DNA of 46,150 nt from a virus, in IMG/VR virus record IMGVR_UViG_3300037247_000371, positions 1 through 46,150 of that record; one strand, given 5' to 3'. Made by a program: the position numbers and the translations under genes. Position 1 is the first letter of the stretch. Each line of letters begins with the position of its first letter. Of the stretch, positions 2,999 to 27,211 are shown in pieces. The notes below the pieces were generated by a model, which did no database searches, was not told the DNA's origin, and saw nothing but the letters and a program-made list of their open reading frames with translations.

Positions 2999-3077
2999 AT
3001 CTAACCAGGCACTCAAGCCTGACCGCCAACACTCGCTTTGCTTCGCTTTTGTCGGCAGTTTAGTTTTTTTGTTAGGT
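2999..3077 (+). mobile_element. attC-like integron site A
   Basis: Left R box ATCTAAC (2999-3005) and right R box GTTAGGT (3071-3077) both fit the RYYYAAC/GTTRRRY consensus exactly. The inner arms pair as CT(C)AA..CTG(A)CCG against CTAA..CTGCCG, with extrahelical bases on the left arm as in known attC sites. The loop has a GCTTTGCTTCGC stretch. The stop codon of the minus-strand gene 3072-3353 lies in the right R box. Orientation is given as in aadA1/VCR sites. Confidence 0.8.
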
Positions 3078-3353
3078 ATATTGAAATAATACCTGCTGAT
3101 AATTTGCACTCAATTCTTTAGCCGCTTCCCATTGTGTGGGATGCCATTTTTTATAATACGCTTTCTTTTGCTCCATTTTGAAAAGGAATTTTTGAATGCG
3201 CCATAATTTTTTAAAGATCTTTTTTGGAATATCATAACAACGTAAATCATAAAAACCCTTATAAGGAACGTAGACGGGAAAATACATAACCAGGCACTCA
3301 AGAGGGACTGGCCAACCAGCGTTTTCAATTTTTGTACGTTTAGTTTTTCGCAT
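3072..3353 (-). CDS. Basic cassette-encoded protein with attC-derived leader
   Basis: 93 residues from the ATG at 3353, which has GAGG seven bases upstream. That start lies in the loop of attC site B, so the first about 22 residues are encoded by the recombination site and end with the codons GTT ATG. An internal start at 3287 would give a 71-residue core protein beginning MYFPVYVPYKGFYD. The core is basic and aromatic (KKIFKKLWRIQKFLFKMEQKKAYYKKWHPTQW). The stop falls in the R box of site A. No family recognised. Flanking attC sites on both sides make it a complete cassette. Confidence 0.6.
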   Translation of the reverse strand: MRKTKRTKIENAGWPVPLECLVMYFPVYVPYKGFYDLRCYDIPKKIFKKLWRIQKFLFKMEQKKAYYKKWHPTQWEAAKELSANYQQVLFQYT

Positions 3354-3406
3354 CTTAAACCTCAATTTGGGCGGCTCAGGCCAGCCCCTTAGTTTGAGCG
3401 TTATGC
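3284..3406 (+). mobile_element. attC-like integron site B (VCR-like)
   Basis: R boxes ACATAAC (3284-3290) and GTTATGC (3400-3406). The left arm CTCAAGAGGGACTGGCC and the right arm GGCCAGCCCCTTAG pair over 14 bp if three bases (C, A, A) stay extrahelical on the left arm. The text CTCAAGAGGGACTG and CAGCCCCTTAG is almost that of Vibrio cholerae VCR sites as I remember them. The 60-nt loop carries a minus-strand ribosome site and start codon. This is one of the clearest attC copies in the window. Confidence 0.88.
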
Positions 3407-3691
3407 GCTCAATTCATCGAAGCTTGATGACCAATCTGATATTTCGTAATCGCTTGATTTGGCCTTCCAGTATTCTATCAGTTCTTTTTTGGGCAAGCCA
3501 TCGGCAACTTTTGCTTTCACTTCGTCGAACAATTCAGAGTTAGTGTTTAAGATAAAGTAACCATCTTGATCTTCAAGAACCATCGCAATCTCATCTCCAA
3601 ATGCGAAGCTAAAATAACCACCCTCAAAATCAACAACTTTGTTTGTACCAATTACAGCAAAAGAACTCCCAATACTATCCAAATTCCCCAT
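3401..3691 (-). CDS. Acidic cassette protein, function unknown
   Basis: 96 residues. The start at 3691 is preceded by TTAAGGAGGATAAA, a strong ribosome site lying outside the attC. The protein begins MGNLDSIGSSFAVIG and is acidic and beta-rich, with VVDFEGGYFSFAFGDEIAMVLEDQDGY in the first half and a helical C-terminus ending DWSSSFDELSA. Its stop TAA is inside the right R box of site B (GCATAAC on the minus strand). It lies between site B and half-site C, so it looks like one cassette gene. No family recognised. Confidence 0.7.
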   Translation of the reverse strand: MGNLDSIGSSFAVIGTNKVVDFEGGYFSFAFGDEIAMVLEDQDGYFILNTNSELFDEVKAKVADGLPKKELIEYWKAKSSDYEISDWSSSFDELSA

Positions 3692-3719
3692 TTTATCCTC
3701 CTTAATTAGAGTTTTTAGC

Positions 3720-3749
3720 GCATAACAAAGCGCTTAATTTCGACCGCCA
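3720..3749 (+). mobile_element. attC-like half-site C
   Basis: R box GCATAAC (3720-3726), then AAAGCGCTTAATTTCGACCGCC, which has the spacing and composition of an attC left half. No matching right half is seen before the end of the next gene at 3762. The site is probably truncated by a later recombination event, or never was complete. Confidence 0.5.
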
Positions 3750-3761
3750 AATTTGCCGCCG

Positions 3762-7113: not shown

Positions 7114-7812
7114 TCATTTGAGCAATCTATCAAGATTCGTCTTCTGCTTGATCTCCACCCCGTATCGATTCAACTCGCTTATCAGCAACCTCACATCATC
7201 GCCACTCGGCTCATCAAGTCCGGTTCCTTTTGAGTCGGCCCCTATGTTTACGAATCCAGGGGAAGCTCCGTTAATACGTAAAGCTAATTCATCCATATTT
7301 CCATAAAAAATAGGCTCAATAGTAATAAATGTTTTTTCCCTATATGACAGCGCGTCCATCTCATCAAGCCTATCTGTGGGGAGGGGTGCAAAATTAGTCG
7401 CATTAGTCGCCACCTCTGCGTCGATTGTTTCAACTGTACACCCCAACATCCTTTCCGGCGGCATCAGGGAAAGAAAGCCGTGATACCTCGCCGGATTCTT
7501 AGTCTGATAAATATATTCGTTTTCAGGATATCGATTGCAGTGGTCAAGTATTCTCTCAATCCATTCGTCGGGTACGCCCTCAGCCCACATGTCATTACAA
7601 TGCTCGATAAAGATCGTCCGGCCCGATCCGTAATTGACATCAAGTTCTTTTTCGATCAACCGTAATTCCCCGGCATAGCGCCCACCCTTGAAACGCTTTT
7701 CCATTGCCTGGACATAGCAATAACTGCATTTATGAAGACATTCTCCGCCGATGTGGGTATGGGTAAAATCTACCCAAGAATACATGTTACCTTTTGATTT
7801 TGTTAAAGCCAT
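7114..7812 (-). CDS. DUF5131 (phage Gp37/Gp68-type) radical-SAM-like protein
   Basis: 232 residues. The start MALTKSKGNMYSWVDFTHT leads to C25-x3-C29-x2-C32 (CLHKCSYC), the [4Fe-4S] cluster motif. Further family marks are FIEHCNDMWAEGVPDEWI, YIYQTKNP and FITIEPIF. I recognise this as the DUF5131/Gp37-Gp68 group, widespread in phages and plasmids and of unknown function. It is preceded by a long purine-rich ribosome-binding tract. attC-like site D lies just upstream, so in attC polarity it could be the first gene of the cassette array. Confidence 0.85.
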   Translation of the reverse strand: MALTKSKGNMYSWVDFTHTHIGGECLHKCSYCYVQAMEKRFKGGRYAGELRLIEKELDVNYGSGRTIFIEHCNDMWAEGVPDEWIERILDHCNRYPENEYIYQTKNPARYHGFLSLMPPERMLGCTVETIDAEVATNATNFAPLPTDRLDEMDALSYREKTFITIEPIFYGNMDELALRINGASPGFVNIGADSKGTGLDEPSGDDVRLLISELNRYGVEIKQKTNLDRLLK

Positions 7813-7876: not shown

Positions 7877-7928
7877 ACCTACATTATAGGCACCCATTTG
7901 TGGTGGCCGCTTATTTCGGGCGTTATGT
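7877..7928 (+). mobile_element. attC-like site D (short or degenerate)
   Basis: The right half is clear: GGTGGCCGCTTATTTCGGGC then R box GTTATGT (7922-7928). The left half is short: GGCACC pairs with GGTG(G)CC across a seven-base loop, and the left R box is degenerate (ACCTACA). The stop codon of gene 7923-8204 lies in the right R box, as in the other sites. On the minus strand it contains a TATAAT that might serve as a -10 box without an obvious -35. Confidence 0.55.
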
Positions 7929-8204
7929 GGTCACTTCCATTTTTGACATTACTTTTCTTAGGGCCTCACCTGCATGGGCTGCGCTTACTCCAGTTTTCCC
8001 AAGTGCCTCACAGTGTCGCCTAGTCCCTTCTTCAATTTCTTCATCTGTCATGTCAAGAATATCATAGCCAAAGAACAGCATATGGGCTTTAATATTCGCT
8101 ATTACTTTTTTCTTTTTTCTACGTTCAAACCACATAACAAGTCGCTCAAGACGGGACTGGCTAGGGGCGGTTTTCAAATTTTCGTCTCCTTTCTTCGTTG
8201 GCAT
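7923..8204 (-). CDS. Cassette protein with attC-encoded N-terminus
   Basis: 93 residues. The ATG at 8204 has AAAGGAGG four bases upstream and sits in the loop of site E. The first about 23 residues, ending SQSRLERLV before the methionine at 8135, are therefore encoded by the recombination site. The core from MWFERRKKKK includes DILDMTDEEIEEGTRRHCEALGKTGVSAAHAGEALRKVM, a helical acidic/basic module without a known name. The stop is in the R box of site D. A nearly identical leader peptide is found at 26107-26379. Confidence 0.7.
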   Translation of the reverse strand: MPTKKGDENLKTAPSQSRLERLVMWFERRKKKKVIANIKAHMLFFGYDILDMTDEEIEEGTRRHCEALGKTGVSAAHAGEALRKVMSKMEVTT

Positions 8205-8255
8205 AAATCCTCCTTTGGGGTCACTCAGCCAGCCCCTTAGCTTAATTCGTTATGC
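8132..8255 (+). mobile_element. attC-like integron site E
   Basis: R boxes ACATAAC (8132-8138) and GTTATGC (8249-8255). The left arm GCTCAAGACGGGACTGGCT pairs with AGCCAGCCCCTTAGC over 15 bp when C, AC and A are left extrahelical, the classical attC pattern. The loop of about 80 nt carries the minus-strand ribosome site and ATG of gene 7923-8204. Right arm and flank are almost identical to those of site J. Confidence 0.88.
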
Positions 8256-8438
8256 CCTAGGTGTAGGCATTCGCATAAGTTGATGTCCACAATAGATGCA
8301 CTCACCGAATTGCATCAAATGGTTACAACTTCCCCTCTTTATTGGCTCAGGCCCCTTGTCAGCACCAGGGCAAGTATCACAATCATCATGCCCATAATAT
8401 TTATCTTCTTTATCAAAACATCTTCTGTCGCAACTCAT
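8250..8438 (-). CDS. Cysteine-rich zinc-ribbon cassette protein
   Basis: 62 residues from the ATG at 8438, preceded by GGAGGT at optimal spacing (outside the attC). It has paired cysteines: CDRRC, CDTCPG, then C-x8-C-IYCGHQL, which suggests one or two structural zinc sites. The stop is in the R box of site E and the gene starts just after site F, so it is a complete cassette. Function unknown. Confidence 0.7.
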   Translation of the reverse strand: MSCDRRCFDKEDKYYGHDDCDTCPGADKGPEPIKRGSCNHLMQFGECIYCGHQLMRMPTPRA

Positions 8439-8453
8439 CCTCACCTCCATCGG

Positions 8454-8551
8454 GCATAACCAGGCGTTTCAGTTGGAAATTTACCACGCAGCCTGGTCGG
8501 CCATTTGAAGTTTTGTCCAGTGGCAAATTCCACTGAACTTGATCGTTATAA
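8454..8551 (+). mobile_element. attC-like integron site F
   Basis: R boxes GCATAAC (8454-8460) and GTTATAA (8545-8551). The left arm TTCAGTTGGAAATTTACCAC pairs with GTGGCAAATTCCACTGAA if one T and one A stay extrahelical on the left arm. The stop of gene 8546-8740 lies in the right R box. No ribosome site in the loop. Confidence 0.8.
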
Positions 8552-8740
8552 TTCCTCTATTCCACCTTCTTGCATGTTGGCTCTATACCATTTCTCCGAT
8601 CCCACCACTTTCATTTCAACAGTGTCATCTCTCATGCAAATCGCGAATCTATTTCCTTCCTCCGTCTCCAAAATTACGGAATTGAAAACCTCCTTCAAAA
8701 CTATAGTTCCACCATCTACCGGATCAACTTCTATTTTCAT
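8546..8740 (-). CDS. Small beta-rich cassette protein
   Basis: 64 residues beginning MKIEVDPVDGGTIVLKEVF. The ribosome site AAAGGAG lies directly after the R box of site G1. The predicted strands (TIVLKEVFNSVILETEEGNRFAICMRDDTVEMKVVGSEKWY) suggest a small barrel. The stop TAA is in the R box of site F, so the gene fills the whole cassette. Function unknown. Confidence 0.7.
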   Translation of the reverse strand: MKIEVDPVDGGTIVLKEVFNSVILETEEGNRFAICMRDDTVEMKVVGSEKWYRANMQEGGIEEL

Positions 8741-8755
8741 AATAATCTCCTTTAA

Positions 8756-8825
8756 TTATAACCATTTAATCAAGTCTGACGTTTTTTCACTGCGTTCAAA
8801 AAAGCAGCTTATCAATCCGTTATAA
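8756..8825 (+). mobile_element. attC-like integron site G1
   Basis: R boxes TTATAAC (8756-8762) and GTTATAA (8819-8825) are complementary. The left arm TCAAGTCTGACGTTTTTT pairs with AAAAAAGCAGCTTA after leaving C, T and A extrahelical, the same three positions as in site B. A CACTGCGTTC loop closes the hairpin. Its right R box is shared with site G2. Confidence 0.8.
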
Positions 8826-8875
8826 CCAAAAAATGAACCAGACAGGAAACCTGCCTGTTATTTTGGCTGTTATGT
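8820..8875 (+). mobile_element. attC-like integron site G2, abutting G1
   Basis: R boxes TTATAAC (8820-8826) and GTTATGT (8869-8875). The left arm AATGAACCAGACAGG pairs with CCTGCCTGTTATT, with G and C extrahelical and one A/C mismatch; the loop is short. G1 and G2 overlap in one R box, so nothing but attC lies between them, i.e. an empty cassette. Confidence 0.75.
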
Positions 8876-8912
8876 GTTTAGGATAAAATTCCAACGATGA
8901 AGGCTCCAATAA

Positions 8913-9344
8913 TTATTGAAGCAGAAACTTTCCATCCCCTCTAAAAATCACTATCGCCGAAGGAAATTTTGCTCCATCCCCTGCACCCTGAAACCGTAGC
9001 CGTCCTTTCACGAACCTGATCTCGCTTGCCGTCATTACCCATTGGTGCCACCACTTGTTGTCTGTCCGGGATGGCACAAGGCACACCACAGTCGCACGGC
9101 TCTCGGCTGCTTTCTTGAGCCACATACCTATGTCGCGACCATAAGGTGGGTTCATCCATACAATTTCCCCTGCCCAATCTTTTTTTAGTCCGTCCGTTTC
9201 CTTGTCGTAATATTTTTGGCATTTTGCAAGCTCCTTATTGGCACAAACGTCTACCGTAAATCCAAACTCACGGTGCAATTCATCAAAAAATCTTTGGGGT
9301 GTTCCCCATTCAAATTTACCTGTTGTGTTATCTGTAAAACTCAT
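8913..9344 (-). CDS. dam: Phage DNA N6-adenine methyltransferase (Dam type)
   Basis: 143 residues from the ATG at 9344 (GAGGAGGTGCTT upstream). EWGTPQRFFDELHREFGFTVDVCANKELAKC and the catalytic NPPY at residues 65-68 (VWMNPPYGRDIGMWLKKAAE) identify the short phage Dam family. VVCLVPSRTDNKWWH and the RLRFQGAGDGAKFPSAIVIF ending are also typical. It methylates adenine in phage DNA, giving protection from restriction or timing of replication. It lies between attC sites G2 and H and is therefore a cassette gene. The 8876-8912 gap holds no clear ORF. Confidence 0.92.
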   Translation of the reverse strand: MSFTDNTTGKFEWGTPQRFFDELHREFGFTVDVCANKELAKCQKYYDKETDGLKKDWAGEIVWMNPPYGRDIGMWLKKAAESRATVVCLVPSRTDNKWWHQWVMTASEIRFVKGRLRFQGAGDGAKFPSAIVIFRGDGKFLLQ

Positions 9345-9354
9345 AAGCACCTCC

Positions 9355-9453
9355 TCATTTTAAGAAAAACCGGCCTAACCAAAGGCTGCAAGCGACCTCT
9401 TTCACTGCGTTCAATCGATCCGAGTTGCTTCCTGTTTCCGTTTTCTCGCTCAT
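9355..9453 (-). CDS. Leader peptide encoded across attC site H
   Basis: 32 residues. The ATG at 9453 follows GAAAGGAGACCC in the site H loop, and the frame runs through the left arm and R box. It stops at a TGA that overlaps the ribosome site of the Dam gene, so the two are probably coupled. The first part (SEKTETGSNSDRL) resembles the leader of gene 17937-18251 (TPESNTDRL). Likely a by-product or a translation-enhancing leader. Confidence 0.45.
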   Translation of the reverse strand: MSEKTETGSNSDRLNAVKEVACSLWLGRFFLK

Positions 9454-9498
9454 GGGTCTCCTTTCAGGGGCAAAGCCGCCTGAGTTCAATTGTTATGC
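9373..9498 (+). mobile_element. attC-like integron site H
   Basis: R boxes GCCTAAC (9373-9379, perfect RYYYAAC) and GTTATGC (9492-9498). The arms pair less well than elsewhere: CT(G)CAAGCG(A)CC against CTCAGGCGGC on the reverse side. The loop TCAATCGATC..GTTGCTT..GGTCTCCTTTC is closely similar to that of site I. It marks the right end of the D-H array. Confidence 0.7.
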
Positions 9499-9801
9499 GC
9501 CCGTCTCCCTCGGCGCTTTCAAGAAATGCCACATTGGGCATTGGTCTTCTTTGCAAATTAAGTGGCCTATTCCCATCCCAAAAGGGCTGCATGCTTCCAT
9601 CCGCTTCCAGGGCCAGTCTTTAGCAATCTCGGAGAATGGCGCATAACCAGCCATTGCAGCGGGACTTTCTGACACGGTGTCTTTTGGGGCTGTAAGGGCT
9701 GTTTTAATTAATTTATAAACCTTGTCAACATCTGCGTTCCTCAGTTGATGAGCGTCAGCCTTTATAAAGCTAATCTTTATTAATCTATTCTGTGCGTCCA
9801 T
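9493..9801 (-). CDS. Phage protein of unknown function
   Basis: 102 residues. The start at 9801 has GGAGGAT eight bases upstream. The first half (LIKISFIKADAHQLRNADVDKVYKLIKTAL) is helical; the end has CSPFGMGIGHLICKEDQCPMWHFLKAP with three cysteines and a histidine, a possible metal site. The stop coincides with the R box of site H, so the array was inserted at the end of this gene. No family recognised. Confidence 0.65.
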   Translation of the reverse strand: MDAQNRLIKISFIKADAHQLRNADVDKVYKLIKTALTAPKDTVSESPAAMAGYAPFSEIAKDWPWKRMEACSPFGMGIGHLICKEDQCPMWHFLKAPRETGA

Positions 9802-16177: not shown

Positions 16178-16380
16178 ATCACTACCTCCCAGTTATTCCA
16201 GGGAAACATATCAACAGCCCCATCCGGCTTCCGTATGGTTCCGTTCTCGATGAGCCGATCGACAGCACACGCCCTCGCCCGGTCGCTCGTTACCCAATAA
16301 TAAGGAAAGCCGCCGTGAGCCATAATTTGGTTGATTACCTTTTGCTCCTTACCGAGTTTTGTTCTTCCGTCTATTATCAT
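16174..16380 (-). CDS. Small phage protein upstream of ninB
   Basis: 68 residues. KEQKVINQIMAHGGFPYYWVTSDRARACAVDRLIENGTI looks like a winged-helix-type fragment. It is coupled to ninB by a four-base overlap. No named family recognised. Confidence 0.65.
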   Translation of the reverse strand: MIIDGRTKLGKEQKVINQIMAHGGFPYYWVTSDRARACAVDRLIENGTIRKPDGAVDMFPWNNWEVVI

Positions 16381-16393
16381 TGTTTCTTCAATC

Positions 16394-16498
16394 TCAGATG
16401 CCCGTTATTGACGGTGAGGGCTTCAAAGAAATTCTTATAAAATACTTTTGACTTCTGCCTTCGAAAAGTAACGCTAATATCTTCTCTCTCAATTTCAT
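16394..16498 (-). CDS. Possible 34-residue basic peptide
   Basis: Starts one base after the stop of the upstream gene and reads MKLREKILALLFEGRSQKYF, then a short basic tail. Size and position fit a small phage gene, but there is no other support. Confidence 0.35.
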   Translation of the reverse strand: MKLREKILALLFEGRSQKYFIRISLKPSPSITGI

Positions 16499-16499
16499 C

Positions 16500-17045
16500 T
16501 CACACCTTGTCCTTTGGGATTTCGAGGATCATTTTCATGGGAGGTTTACTTAGTAATATTGTAGGATTGAATTGATAACTATTAAAAACCGGATAAATAC
16601 AATTAATATCGTGGCTGTTCCATGTAACATCAACCTCAATCCTCTCCACGCTCTCATCTTCCACCGGAGGGTAGAGGCGGGTCCATCCACTTTTACTGTG
16701 AATTACATCTTTCCTTATATCCTTGTTTCCGGTCATGAAGCCCAGTATACCTTTTTCTGATAAAACCCCTGATTGGCTCATCATGTTTAAACCGAGGCTA
16801 ATGCAAGTAAAGAAATTTAATCTACATTGATCGCCATCATAGTATTCCCATAGCTCTCCACGCGTCTCCGGCCTGATTTCCTCTTCTTCGTAATGGGGGC
16901 TCCAGTCACCCACTATATCCTCCAACATCACAAGGGAGTCATCATCGTCCCACCTCAGTATGCTAAATTCATCACGGAATGCAATTCGGTTTGATGTCGT
17001 GCTTTCTATTTTGCCGTCAACTTCTAGGGCTTCTGCTACATTCAT
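16500..17045 (-). CDS. Phage protein of unknown function
   Basis: 181 residues from the ATG at 17045 (AAAGGGAGGTGTAAG upstream); the frame is open to 17081 but that start lacks a ribosome site. The protein is acidic and beta-rich (DEFSILRWDDDDSLVMLEDIVGDWSPHY ... WTRLYPPVEDESVERIEVDVTWNS). It looks like a single globular domain. No family recognised. Confidence 0.7.
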   Translation of the reverse strand: MNVAEALEVDGKIESTTSNRIAFRDEFSILRWDDDDSLVMLEDIVGDWSPHYEEEEIRPETRGELWEYYDGDQCRLNFFTCISLGLNMMSQSGVLSEKGILGFMTGNKDIRKDVIHSKSGWTRLYPPVEDESVERIEVDVTWNSHDINCIYPVFNSYQFNPTILLSKPPMKMILEIPKDKV

Positions 17046-17936: not shown

Positions 17937-18251
17937 TTACTGTGTTAAATTATCGCACATTGGTGTACGCGGCTCCCATCCTTCTAGCTGCGTCACCCAT
18001 ATATTTGCGGGCACTCCATGTCCGCCTTGTGGCCCATACCAGATATCACTACGTCGAGACCCGTCAGGATTTGTACGGTAAACTGTGGCAACTAAAGTGT
18101 CCTCGCAAAAGCTTTTAATCTGCCCCGTGTTGTCCGTTCTTTTGCTTTTAATATGCTGCCCAACAAAAAACATAACCAATTTATGCAACCGACCGCTAAC
18201 CTCGGTGCTCAATCGATCTGTGTTGCTTTCTGGTGTCATTGTCTTGTCCAT
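17937..18251 (-). CDS. Cassette protein with attC I-encoded N-terminus
   Basis: 104 residues. The ATG at 18251 follows GAAAGGAGACCT in the site I loop. The first about 26 residues are encoded by the attC and end in the codons GTT ATG. The core (MFFVGQHIKSKRTDNTGQIKSFCEDTLVATVYRTNPDGSRRSDIWYGP) is beta-rich and unassigned. The gene runs a few bases past a GTTAAAT (17944-17950) that would be the other junction of the cassette. Function unknown. Confidence 0.65.
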   Translation of the reverse strand: MDKTMTPESNTDRLSTEVSGRLHKLVMFFVGQHIKSKRTDNTGQIKSFCEDTLVATVYRTNPDGSRRSDIWYGPQGGHGVPANIWVTQLEGWEPRTPMCDNLTQ

Positions 18252-18293
18252 AGGTCTCCTTTCTAAATGCGGCCGCTGATAATGGCGTTATAT
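18170..18293 (+). mobile_element. attC-like integron site I (isolated)
   Basis: R boxes ACATAAC (18170-18176) and GTTATAT (18287-18293). Arms TTATGCAACCGACCGC and GCGGCCGCTGATAA pair with several extrahelical bases. The loop shares TCAATCGATC..GTTGCTT..CTG and GGTCTCCTTTC with site H. A GTTAAAT at 17944-17950 fits the GTTRRRY consensus and would delimit a single inserted cassette (17944-18293). Confidence 0.72.
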
Positions 18294-21318: not shown

Positions 21319-22410
21319 CTAATTACCAATTCTCGTAACATCCAATCTAGTTCTATGGCGATGAAAGAATTTTCCTGCTTGGGCTGGTTTATCTCGTATC
21401 GTTACCACATCTCCAACATCAAGAAATACTGTTGCCGATCCTGAATCAGAACGCGCCCCTAAAAGATCTTCAAGCTTTGCTTCGTCTATCCACCATTCAT
21501 GTCCGCTAGAACACACAACATTATCAACGTGGCGTATTTTAGTTTTTACAATCCCATTTAAAATATATCTTGTCTGATTGCCATCATTAGGAAATGAGAA
21601 TGCCAGCGTTGAATTTTTGTAATCGGCCTGTGAACCAACATTTTTAATATCTTCAGTAGCATCCCTTAAATTATCCCATTCCAAGCTTAGATTATTAAAA
21701 GCAAGCACCTCTAAGAAATGATTTGCCCCGCCAATATACTGATTATTTCCCAGCTTAACAAAATGAGGAACGTGATTTATGCTAAAGTCTATATCATACT
21801 CAAAACACCATTCTTCGACTCCGTTACCAGACCCGGATTCAACTATCATAATTTGGTCATTATCAGGATAAAATAAGAAACTTAGAGATGAGTTGTTGTT
21901 ATATGTGGCTGTGCCGAGAGTTGCGGATAATGCAGTTGCAACAGGAAAACTTTCTGGTGGGGTACCGGGCGAGGTAGGGCTTTGCGATACAGCTGATTCG
22001 TTGACAAAGATTGCGAAAGAATAATTAACCTCTGGCTGTCCGTGCATACCAGTATCTCTCCCCAACTTAAAAGTGCCCTCGCCACCCGCCAGAACTGTTA
22101 TCTCGCCAGTAGATAAGCTTGTCGATAGATTACCAAATGATCCCCCTTCTTGTATATTGTCTTTCCATTGATAAAAAATATTGGCTGTGCTGTAGGCCTC
22201 AAAAAAGCCAACAGAATCTTCGTAGGAAAGAAATGCTGTTTGAGGTCCGACATAAAGATGATTCCCATCTGATACCGTCAGATTCCCCACTACGCTCAAG
22301 GGCAAATTGATTTTAAATTCATTTGAATTTACATCGTACCCGGCCCCTCCACCATAAGCTGAAGAAGATAGAGCTAAAAATATGGCTATAAATAAGAAAA
22401 GTCTTTTCAT
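21319..22410 (-). CDS. Secreted or virion-associated protein with signal peptide
   Basis: 363 residues from the ATG at 22410. Signal peptide MKRLFLFIAIFLALSSSAYG, then a beta-rich protein with fibre-like text (FKINLPLSVVGNLTVSDGNHLYVGPQTAFLSYEDS) and a GTPPESFPVATALSATLGTATYNNNSS stretch. A tail-fibre or decoration relative is likely, but Sec signals are unusual for virion proteins. It belongs to a row of four such genes. No named family recognised. Confidence 0.65.
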   Translation of the reverse strand: MKRLFLFIAIFLALSSSAYGGGAGYDVNSNEFKINLPLSVVGNLTVSDGNHLYVGPQTAFLSYEDSVGFFEAYSTANIFYQWKDNIQEGGSFGNLSTSLSTGEITVLAGGEGTFKLGRDTGMHGQPEVNYSFAIFVNESAVSQSPTSPGTPPESFPVATALSATLGTATYNNNSSLSFLFYPDNDQIMIVESGSGNGVEEWCFEYDIDFSINHVPHFVKLGNNQYIGGANHFLEVLAFNNLSLEWDNLRDATEDIKNVGSQADYKNSTLAFSFPNDGNQTRYILNGIVKTKIRHVDNVVCSSGHEWWIDEAKLEDLLGARSDSGSATVFLDVGDVVTIRDKPAQAGKFFHRHRTRLDVTRIGN

Positions 22411-26106: not shown

Positions 26107-26379
26107 TTATGCGCCAAAGAGAAAGTTAGATGTTCTGTCGATCATCCACTTTCTTGCATTACTGGTTTCTTCTTTTATGCTAATTCCAAAATCTTCAAAA
26201 GCCATACTTAATTCAATTACGGCCCGCGACAAACTCCCTTCTGTCACCTTCAATAGCTCCCCGTCGGGCACTACATCTTCTGGGAGTTGCAAGCGATCAC
26301 GTAAACGCATAGTCAGGCGCTCAAGGCGGGACTGGCTTTGGGCGGTGTTCGATTTTTGGTTCTCTTCTGCTTTGGTCAC
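26107..26379 (-). CDS. Cassette protein inserted before the tail fibre, attC J leader
   Basis: 90 residues from a GTG at 26379 (AAAGGA seven bases upstream) in the site J loop; an earlier GTG at 26400 lacks a ribosome site. The leader ends SQSRLERLT before the methionine at 26310, almost the same as in gene 7923-8204. The core (RLRDRLQLPEDVVPDGELLKVTEGSLSRAVIELSMAFEDFGISIKEETSNARKW) is helical and unassigned. It sits between the baseplate DUF2612 gene and the fibre, where most related phages have no gene or a fibre chaperone. Confidence 0.6.
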   Translation of the reverse strand: MTKAEENQKSNTAQSQSRLERLTMRLRDRLQLPEDVVPDGELLKVTEGSLSRAVIELSMAFEDFGISIKEETSNARKWMIDRTSNFLFGA

Positions 26380-26431
26380 TGTTTTATCCTTTGGGGCCAC
26401 TCAGCCAGCCCTTTAGCTTGTCTTGTTATAT
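26307..26431 (+). mobile_element. attC-like integron site J (isolated, in the tail region)
   Basis: The right R box is GTTATAT (26425-26431); the left is imperfect (GCATAGT, 26307-26313). The left arm GCTCAAGGCGGGACTGGCT pairs with AGCCAGCCCTTTAGC with the usual extrahelical C and A. The right arm and flank match site E nearly base for base. TTATGCG at 26105-26111, the same text as follows other R boxes, would be the opposite junction of a single cassette. The DUF2612 stop codon lies in the right R box. Confidence 0.78.
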
Positions 26432-27211
26432 CGACTGTACTTTTGAGAGTCCACCGCCCCCGCCGTCTACAACCTCATAAGACAATGGGAAAGATGTGAA
26501 TATATCAGTGTCGAGGGTTAGCGTTGTGGGGCCGTCAAGATTCGTTACAATAGCCTTTACGTTTCCCGTGACCTCGACTACCTCGCTGCCTATAATCGCG
26601 CCGTCTGCGATGAACCCGGCGCCACTGTCAACCAGTTTAAAAGACGTGACAGAAGTATTCTCCCCTGTCGAAAATAAGTCATCAAATCCCAAAGTTCCGA
26701 TGCTATTCTCAAAACCAAAAGCGTTCTCAGGTGATATGATAGAAGATACGACGGCAACACCAGCCGCAACAACATCCTGCATCAACGTAAATGCTGCCGA
26801 AGCTAAAGCATCGGGGACCGGCGTGTCTGAAAATAATTCAACGCCAGCCGGGTAAGAAGGAATAACTTGAACCAGATTTCCCCCTGTTATTATCTTCCAT
26901 ACCGATAAGACTCTGTTTATATCACCCTCGGAAACGTTGACCCCCGCCCTGGCCTTTAAAAATAGCTTGTAGGTAGCGTCATCCTGTCCGTTTCTATCCT
27001 GACCGACTATAGTGCCGATTCCGTCGAGCTGTACACCCTCACTATTGTCGATATCGAGCCTACCCTGCAAATCAAATAAAACGTCTTCAAGGTCTTGTAT
27101 TTGCTGACCGCCTAAAGAATCAAGCAATGCCTCGATTCCAGTCTTTCCTTTATACTGAAAAAGAAGTCGGTCTTTTGCTTGTTGTGCGTGATTTGTTATT
27201 TTATCGGTCAT
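26426..27211 (-). CDS. Baseplate protein, DUF2612-like
   Basis: 261 residues. The first about 130 residues (QYKGKTGIEALLDSLGGQQIQDLEDVLFDLQGRLDIDNSEGVQLDGIGTIVGQDRNGQDDATYKLFLKARAGVN) are the DUF2612 signature seen after baseplate J genes in myophages. The C-terminus (after residue 160) is a beta-rich extension with a GGGGG hinge, perhaps a fibre attachment. It overlaps the J-like gene by four bases. Its stop lies in attC site J. Confidence 0.82.
   Translation of the reverse strand: MTDKITNHAQQAKDRLLFQYKGKTGIEALLDSLGGQQIQDLEDVLFDLQGRLDIDNSEGVQLDGIGTIVGQDRNGQDDATYKLFLKARAGVNVSEGDINRVLSVWKIITGGNLVQVIPSYPAGVELFSDTPVPDALASAAFTLMQDVVAAGVAVVSSIISPENAFGFENSIGTLGFDDLFSTGENTSVTSFKLVDSGAGFIADGAIIGSEVVEVTGNVKAIVTNLDGPTTLTLDTDIFTSFPLSYEVVDGGGGGLSKVQSI

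Follow-up and report, generated by a model that had tools for sequence, protein, structure and literature searches.

What do integron-type attC sites do in the genome of a phage? Bacterial integrons are stores of accessory genes. The window considered here, the whole 46,150-base stretch of a virus record (G000), had been predicted from its sequence to hold six such sites (D, E, F, G1, G2 and H) between positions 7877 and 9498, alternating with small genes in the early region. All of its called genes lie on the - strand, and their products include a terminase, a portal, a head protease, a major head protein, a tail sheath and baseplate proteins, together with a ParB-like protein, a DnaB-like helicase and an exonuclease of the RecE-like kind. 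The phage belongs to the myoviruses. A search of 50,697 phage records with the first 25 kb of the window returned no near DNA match; no close relative was found in IMG/VR by helicase or portal, and terminase (TerL) and sheath searches led to distant relatives only. The PF00589 profile detected no tyrosine recombinase, hence no IntI, in the window, which comes from a possibly incomplete record. Any cassette array in it is thus integrase-less, and a phage integrase of the tyrosine type is missing as well.

The sites were searched with two covariance models. R1 was built from 10 attC sites of Vibrio, Shewanella and one phage, with no window sequence, and R2 from 26 non-window sites of Shewanella, class 1 integrons, Nitrosomonadales/Betaproteobacteria and viral contigs. 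Because some of the R2 training sites had been fetched with arm patterns derived from the window, R1 provides the cleaner independent test. It matched G1, F, A and the arms of B (Table 1), and the class 1 aadA sites, taken as a yardstick, score about 26 bits under the same model. The covariance search with R2 bore the prediction out, matching seven window sites (A, B, E, F, G1, J and K), all on the + strand, with the next best match at 13.9 bits. An arm-pairing scan gave six window sites with a score of at least 14.5 (B, E, F, G1, G2 and 21944-22103), against 0.15 per dinucleotide shuffle. The site at 21944-22103, an arm-scan match without model support, was dropped as a chance hit.

The extrahelical bases, which give attC sites their polarity, were located in the left arm on the + strand at all nine window sites, which is where VCR and aadA sites have theirs; the corresponding counts were 63 of 64 for bacterial and 403 of 415 for viral sites. 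The expected folding advantage over shuffled sequence appeared only weakly, the bottom strands of the window attC having z-scores from +0.9 to -2.8. Several genuine Vibrio attC were no better, with z between 0 and -1.4 for four out of five, and fold energy fails to tell the window sites, or most of the Vibrio attC, apart from shuffles. An Rfam scan gave no matches; to our knowledge, Rfam holds no attC family.

Table 1. Features of the window. Scores are in bits, with E-values, which are rough for these calibrated models, in brackets.
Feature	Position	Strand	R1	R2	Remarks
attC A	2999..3077	+	16.3 (0.04)	34.3	R'' ATCTAAC, R' GTTAGGT
Cassette gene	3072..3365	-			Best ATG 3353 within loop of B; stop in R' of A
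attC B	3284..3406	+	16.0 (0.05), arms	59.3 (5e-12)	VCR-like arms CTCAAGAGGGACTGGCC / GGCCAGCCCCTTAG
Cassette gene	3401..3691	-			TAA stop in R' of B
Half site C	3718..3760	+			R''-L'' only (GCATAAC...); read from sequence; no model match
Half site D	7895..7928	+			L'-R' only, R' GTTATGT 7922-7928; read from sequence; no model match
Cassette gene	7923..8204	-			SD AAAGGAGG and ATG in loop of E; stop in R' of half site D
attC E	8132..8255	+		43.6	
Cassette gene	8250..8450	-			Stop in R' of E; start adjoins R'' of F
attC F	8454..8551	+	26.3 (6e-5)	34.5	
Cassette gene	8546..8740	-			Stop in R' of F
attC G1	8756..8825	+	30.7 (3e-6)	38.0	
attC G2	8820..8875	+			Arm scanner score 14.5; no model match; overlaps R' of G1
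Dam-type DNA N6-adenine methyltransferase cassette gene	8913..9350	-			PF05869, E 8.5e-29
Degenerate attC H	9373..9498	+			Decayed arms; resembles J by blast; no model match
Gene	9493..9801	-			Stop in R' of H
Decayed site I	9643..9715	+			R'' GCATAACC, good L'' half only; read from sequence; no model match
Cassette gene	17937..18251	-			SD and ATG in loop of J
Solitary attC J	18170..18293	+		29.3	
Cassette gene	26107..26400	-			Start inside K
Solitary attC K	26307..26431	+		19.7 (0.02)	Between tail genes; decayed R'' GCATAGT
Baseplate/tail protein gene	26426..27211	-			PHROG baseplate/structural families; R' box of K serves as stop codon

Both R boxes, paired arms, extrahelical bases and a model match are thus combined in A, B, E, F, G1 and J; K is marginal, and H and D fall short. 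Among the six sites of the original prediction, E, F and G1 are firm, but D consists of a right half only, H has decayed arms and no model match, and G2 passes the arm scan without a covariance match. The assignment of integron-type attC to a phage early region and the VCR-like character of the arms were both upheld by the covariance models, the extrahelical-base polarity and the relatives. A, B, J and K lie outside the predicted segment, and the prediction had missed the antiparallel orientation of the genes. The arms also resemble those of Nitrosomonadales/Betaproteobacteria attC. With at least two close attC and no intI, the groups A-B and E-G1, each within 3 kb, form CALINs; in the absence of intI the window holds no complete integron. 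Judged by its bases, half site C is probably a truncated attC, and its pairing with D as two halves of one attC split by replication genes was rejected because the L arms mismatch. G1 and G2 have an R box in common with no gene between them (8819-8875), as in an attC-only cassette of about 50 bp.

The attC top strand is the + strand while the cassette genes are all on the - strand, so that the genes run antiparallel to their attC. These are not canonical gene cassettes, in which the gene follows the attC top strand and stops near R''. In the genes ending at 3072, 3401, 8250, 8546, 9493 and 26426, the TTA in a G|TTA R' box provides the TAA stop; the R' boxes holding gene stops are those of A, B, E, F, H and K, plus that of half site D (gene ending at 7923). 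At the other end, a Shine-Dalgarno sequence (SD) and a start within the loop, open through R'', were found in B, E, H, J and K, as in E with AAAGGAGG-ATTT-ATG, that is, on the bottom strand of five of the six long window attC. The loop of B thus serves the left-hand gene 3072-3365, and that of H holds the SD AAAGGAG and the ATG of a short leader ORF (9355-9489). With stops in R' and starts in the loop, the gene of every cassette has its own stop and start. K and E are 79% identical over about 105 bases, a similarity confined to the attC, and different proteins begin from each. Orientation was inferred from ORF coding scores, which were used instead of a longest-ORF tally that gave the same direction with more noise. 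We rejected the possibility that the reversal is an artefact of the model strand, given that the extra arm bases indicate the same polarity and that the same model returns bacterial controls as normal.

The layout was then surveyed in IMG/VR with a strand-neutral 22-base pattern, which selects one attC arm type and retrieved 120 stretches, in which R2 identified 397 attC. One or more scorable cassettes occurred in 80 contigs, of which 71 were mainly reversed, one was normal and eight were unclear; by cassette (n=310), 209 were reversed, 7 normal and 94 undecided. The bacterial controls, which cover one class and two genera, had the opposite orientation: genomes of the class of the Nitrosomonadales locus L018 gave no reversed, 17 normal and 13 undecided cassettes, and the reversed to normal ratio in Vibrio and Shewanella integron pieces was 1 to 16. 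Gene stops in R' occurred at 86 of 258 viral versus 2 of 70 bacterial sites, and a loop SD with a start on the bottom strand of long attC at 41 of 110 viral versus 1 of 42 bacterial or sedentary chromosomal integron (SCI) sites, the top strand giving none. The viral status of the contigs derives mainly from IMG/VR, with a TerL_6N match in 12 of 42. The reversed layout is recurrent in about 70 other viral genomes. Two contigs from different metagenomes, G005 (138 kb) and G003 (36 kb), have an identical stretch of more than 10 kb with the same reversed array (L013, L015, L023 and L024).

Taken together, we consider the sites to be genuine attC, forming two short integrase-less arrays (A-B and E-H) and the solitary J and K, and belonging to an inverted cassette type that recurs in phages (probability of about 0.87). 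Contrary to the original prediction, attC arrays in phages are not new, since the article text of Qi et al. 2023 (PMC9892861) already describes 17 phage CALINs, as well as phage-borne integrons. Like the window, the CALINs of TJE1, PH101, P12002L and MW202573 are integrase-less attC clusters with methyltransferase cargo, and phage CALIN attC are reported there to be recognised by IntI1 (PMC9892861). In PH101 and MW202573, too, the genes run against the attC direction: the GenBank genes of PH101 agree, with three attC on the + strand and the neighbouring CDS all on the - strand, as do the GenBank genes of MW202573 combined with our model. TJE1 differs in being normally oriented; hence not every phage array is reversed, and the rule has exceptions. 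The text of PMC9892861 states that cassettes share one direction and gives no account of gene orientation relative to attC polarity, R' stops or loop starts. Among published open-licence papers and in the main text of PMC9892861, we found no description of inverted cassettes as a phage rule.

Integron pieces within phage records are also known from the temperate phages V. anguillarum p16 and Shewanella M16-3, but these SCI pieces have normally oriented cassettes and are clearly host-derived. Sedentary chromosomal integrons themselves (Vibrio VCR; Nitrosomonadales L018 and L025) resemble the window in attC sequence and structure, in extrahelical positions and in having one small gene per cassette. 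They differ in that the gene follows the attC top strand, in their Pc/attI/IntI platform and in the near absence of loop starts.

Seven viral contigs encode a full-length IntI scoring above 425 bits (G042, G043, G103, G111, G113, G128 and G139; loci L174-L181). All seven have their attC directed away from intI, the usual integron arrangement, and their cassette genes lead up to and into intI, which lies downstream and co-directional. In the five contigs examined, with G103 left out, proteins matched tail-fibre, tail, baseplate, RecE-like or ParB families. G042 and G043 have the same IntI, and a 640-aa ParB-like gene adjoins intI in both. The co-directionality of intI and cassette genes is reminiscent of the reverse integrons of Treponema denticola, where intI is flipped, the cassettes are normal and the gene stop lies in R'' (PMC7691350). 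Treponema flips intI (PMC7691350), whereas the phages keep the normal geometry of intI and attC and flip the gene within the cassette; the window is thus not a Treponema-type reverse integron. In a tree of a small IntI sample, the viral IntI cluster together, class 1 IntI1 joins them on a long branch within a poorly resolved group, and the Nitrosomonadales IntI of G008 is placed next to this group. The tree makes a link between the class 1 IntI lineage and phages possible, and even such a weak grouping with the IntI1 of clinical class 1 integrons makes the link worth testing.

Cassette exchange is visible between related arrays. L097 and L115, 97% identical beside the junction, differ at the R box by one cassette of 267 bases. 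This cassette holds an entire gene, which begins at an ATG within the loop of the added attC and stops in R'. L032 and L068, 99.9% identical over a 4-kb flank, share one attC, beyond whose GTT three different cassettes are found, and a similar difference separates L101 from L133. Whole cassettes are thus gained or lost with a switch in R' in other viral contigs.

These arrangements suggest the following mechanism. Each cassette starts at the base that follows the G of an R' box, reaches to its own attC and carries a single gene antiparallel to the attC top strand, the TTA of R' at the cassette edge making the stop, and the Shine-Dalgarno sequence and start lying beside or within the gene's own attC loop. 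Since a cassette encloses both stop and start, whole genes could be gained, lost or reordered within a phage operon by an integron integrase with their frames intact. Early phage transcription would read the array as a single - strand operon. An integron integrase, supplied by the host or another phage, would recombine attC bottom strands, once folded, at G|TT, so that whole genes are swapped; each incoming gene would join the operon in the correct direction, and exchanges would leave a working operon. Transcription in the gene direction would displace the attC bottom strand and may favour its folding. We infer that the window's own cassettes were moved by an IntI supplied by the host, by a co-infecting phage or by an unsequenced part of the genome. 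Phage genes placed in a bacterial integron would be antisense to Pc, and cassettes from bacteria would likewise read antisense within the phage, so that orientation may also separate the two pools.

We lean towards a phage-own cassette class with inverted genes, R' stops and loop starts, whose co-transcribed operons end, when it is present, in a phage-borne intI, and which would constitute exchangeable counter-defence libraries kept apart from bacterial cassettes by being mutually antisense. If true, such a phage counterpart of the integron would explain how small early genes are swapped one by one with operons intact. It would also make two ideas testable, attC as gene start and stop modules, and orientation as the separator of phage and bacterial cassette pools.

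The absence of IntI from the window, together with the decay of K, H, C, D and I, means that the array could be a relic. The attC would then be such by descent only, from a host integron piece captured once and now inert as intergenic start and stop sequence. This is a serious alternative, to which we give somewhat over a third of the weight: K has a decayed R'', H is weak, C and I are half sites like D, and no relatives show the window cassettes moving. Against it, B, E, F, G1, A and J retain R boxes, arms and extrahelical bases, and related arrays clearly exchange cassettes. In addition, host arrays of the same attC type are oppositely oriented, so a simple capture fails to yield the layout.

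It is improbable that the sites are translation or RNA elements of the phage, palindromic stop-hairpin-start modules between operon genes that came to look like attC by convergence. Stops in R' and SD/start signals in the loop would suit such a role, and the foldable bottom strand is the mRNA strand. However, the scores that the covariance models give against attC of Vibrio, Shewanella and class 1 integrons, the R boxes and the presence of both extrahelical bases in the proper arm do not fit convergence, nor do the same layout beside IntI in seven viral contigs and the switching of cassettes at GTT. PH101 attC, which have this layout, moreover recombine with IntI1 according to the text of PMC9892861, where five of six phage attC tested are reported to do so. 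A mis-assembled or mis-binned bacterial integron piece, which a metagenomic viral record and arms of Nitrosomonadales/Betaproteobacteria type might evoke, is hardly credible with sites interleaved with DnaB, RecE-like, ParB and tail genes on one strand, K between tail genes and a gene orientation opposite to that of bacterial arrays.

As for the cargo of the inverted cassettes, most of 137 proteins from reversed cassettes had no match; the others included N6_N4_Mtase (7), Dam (2) and RNA ligase (3), and one each of Tad3, a Thoeris inhibitor, Acb2/Tad1, MazG and HNH. The Tad3 anti-Thoeris gene lies at 16296-16664 of its record (G106; L105, L184-L185), which also encodes a terminase and contains an attC array of the reversed kind. 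Proteins with an Acb2/Tad1-type hairpin domain are encoded in three contigs with reversed arrays (G018, G022 and G039), at least one of them as a cassette, most likely L099 in G039. The window's own cassette cargo probably helps the phage to overcome host defences. Directly to the left of half site D, the gene at 7114-7812 resembles PHROG 2045, and its product contains cysteines in a motif, CLHKCSYCYV, that recalls radical SAM proteins.
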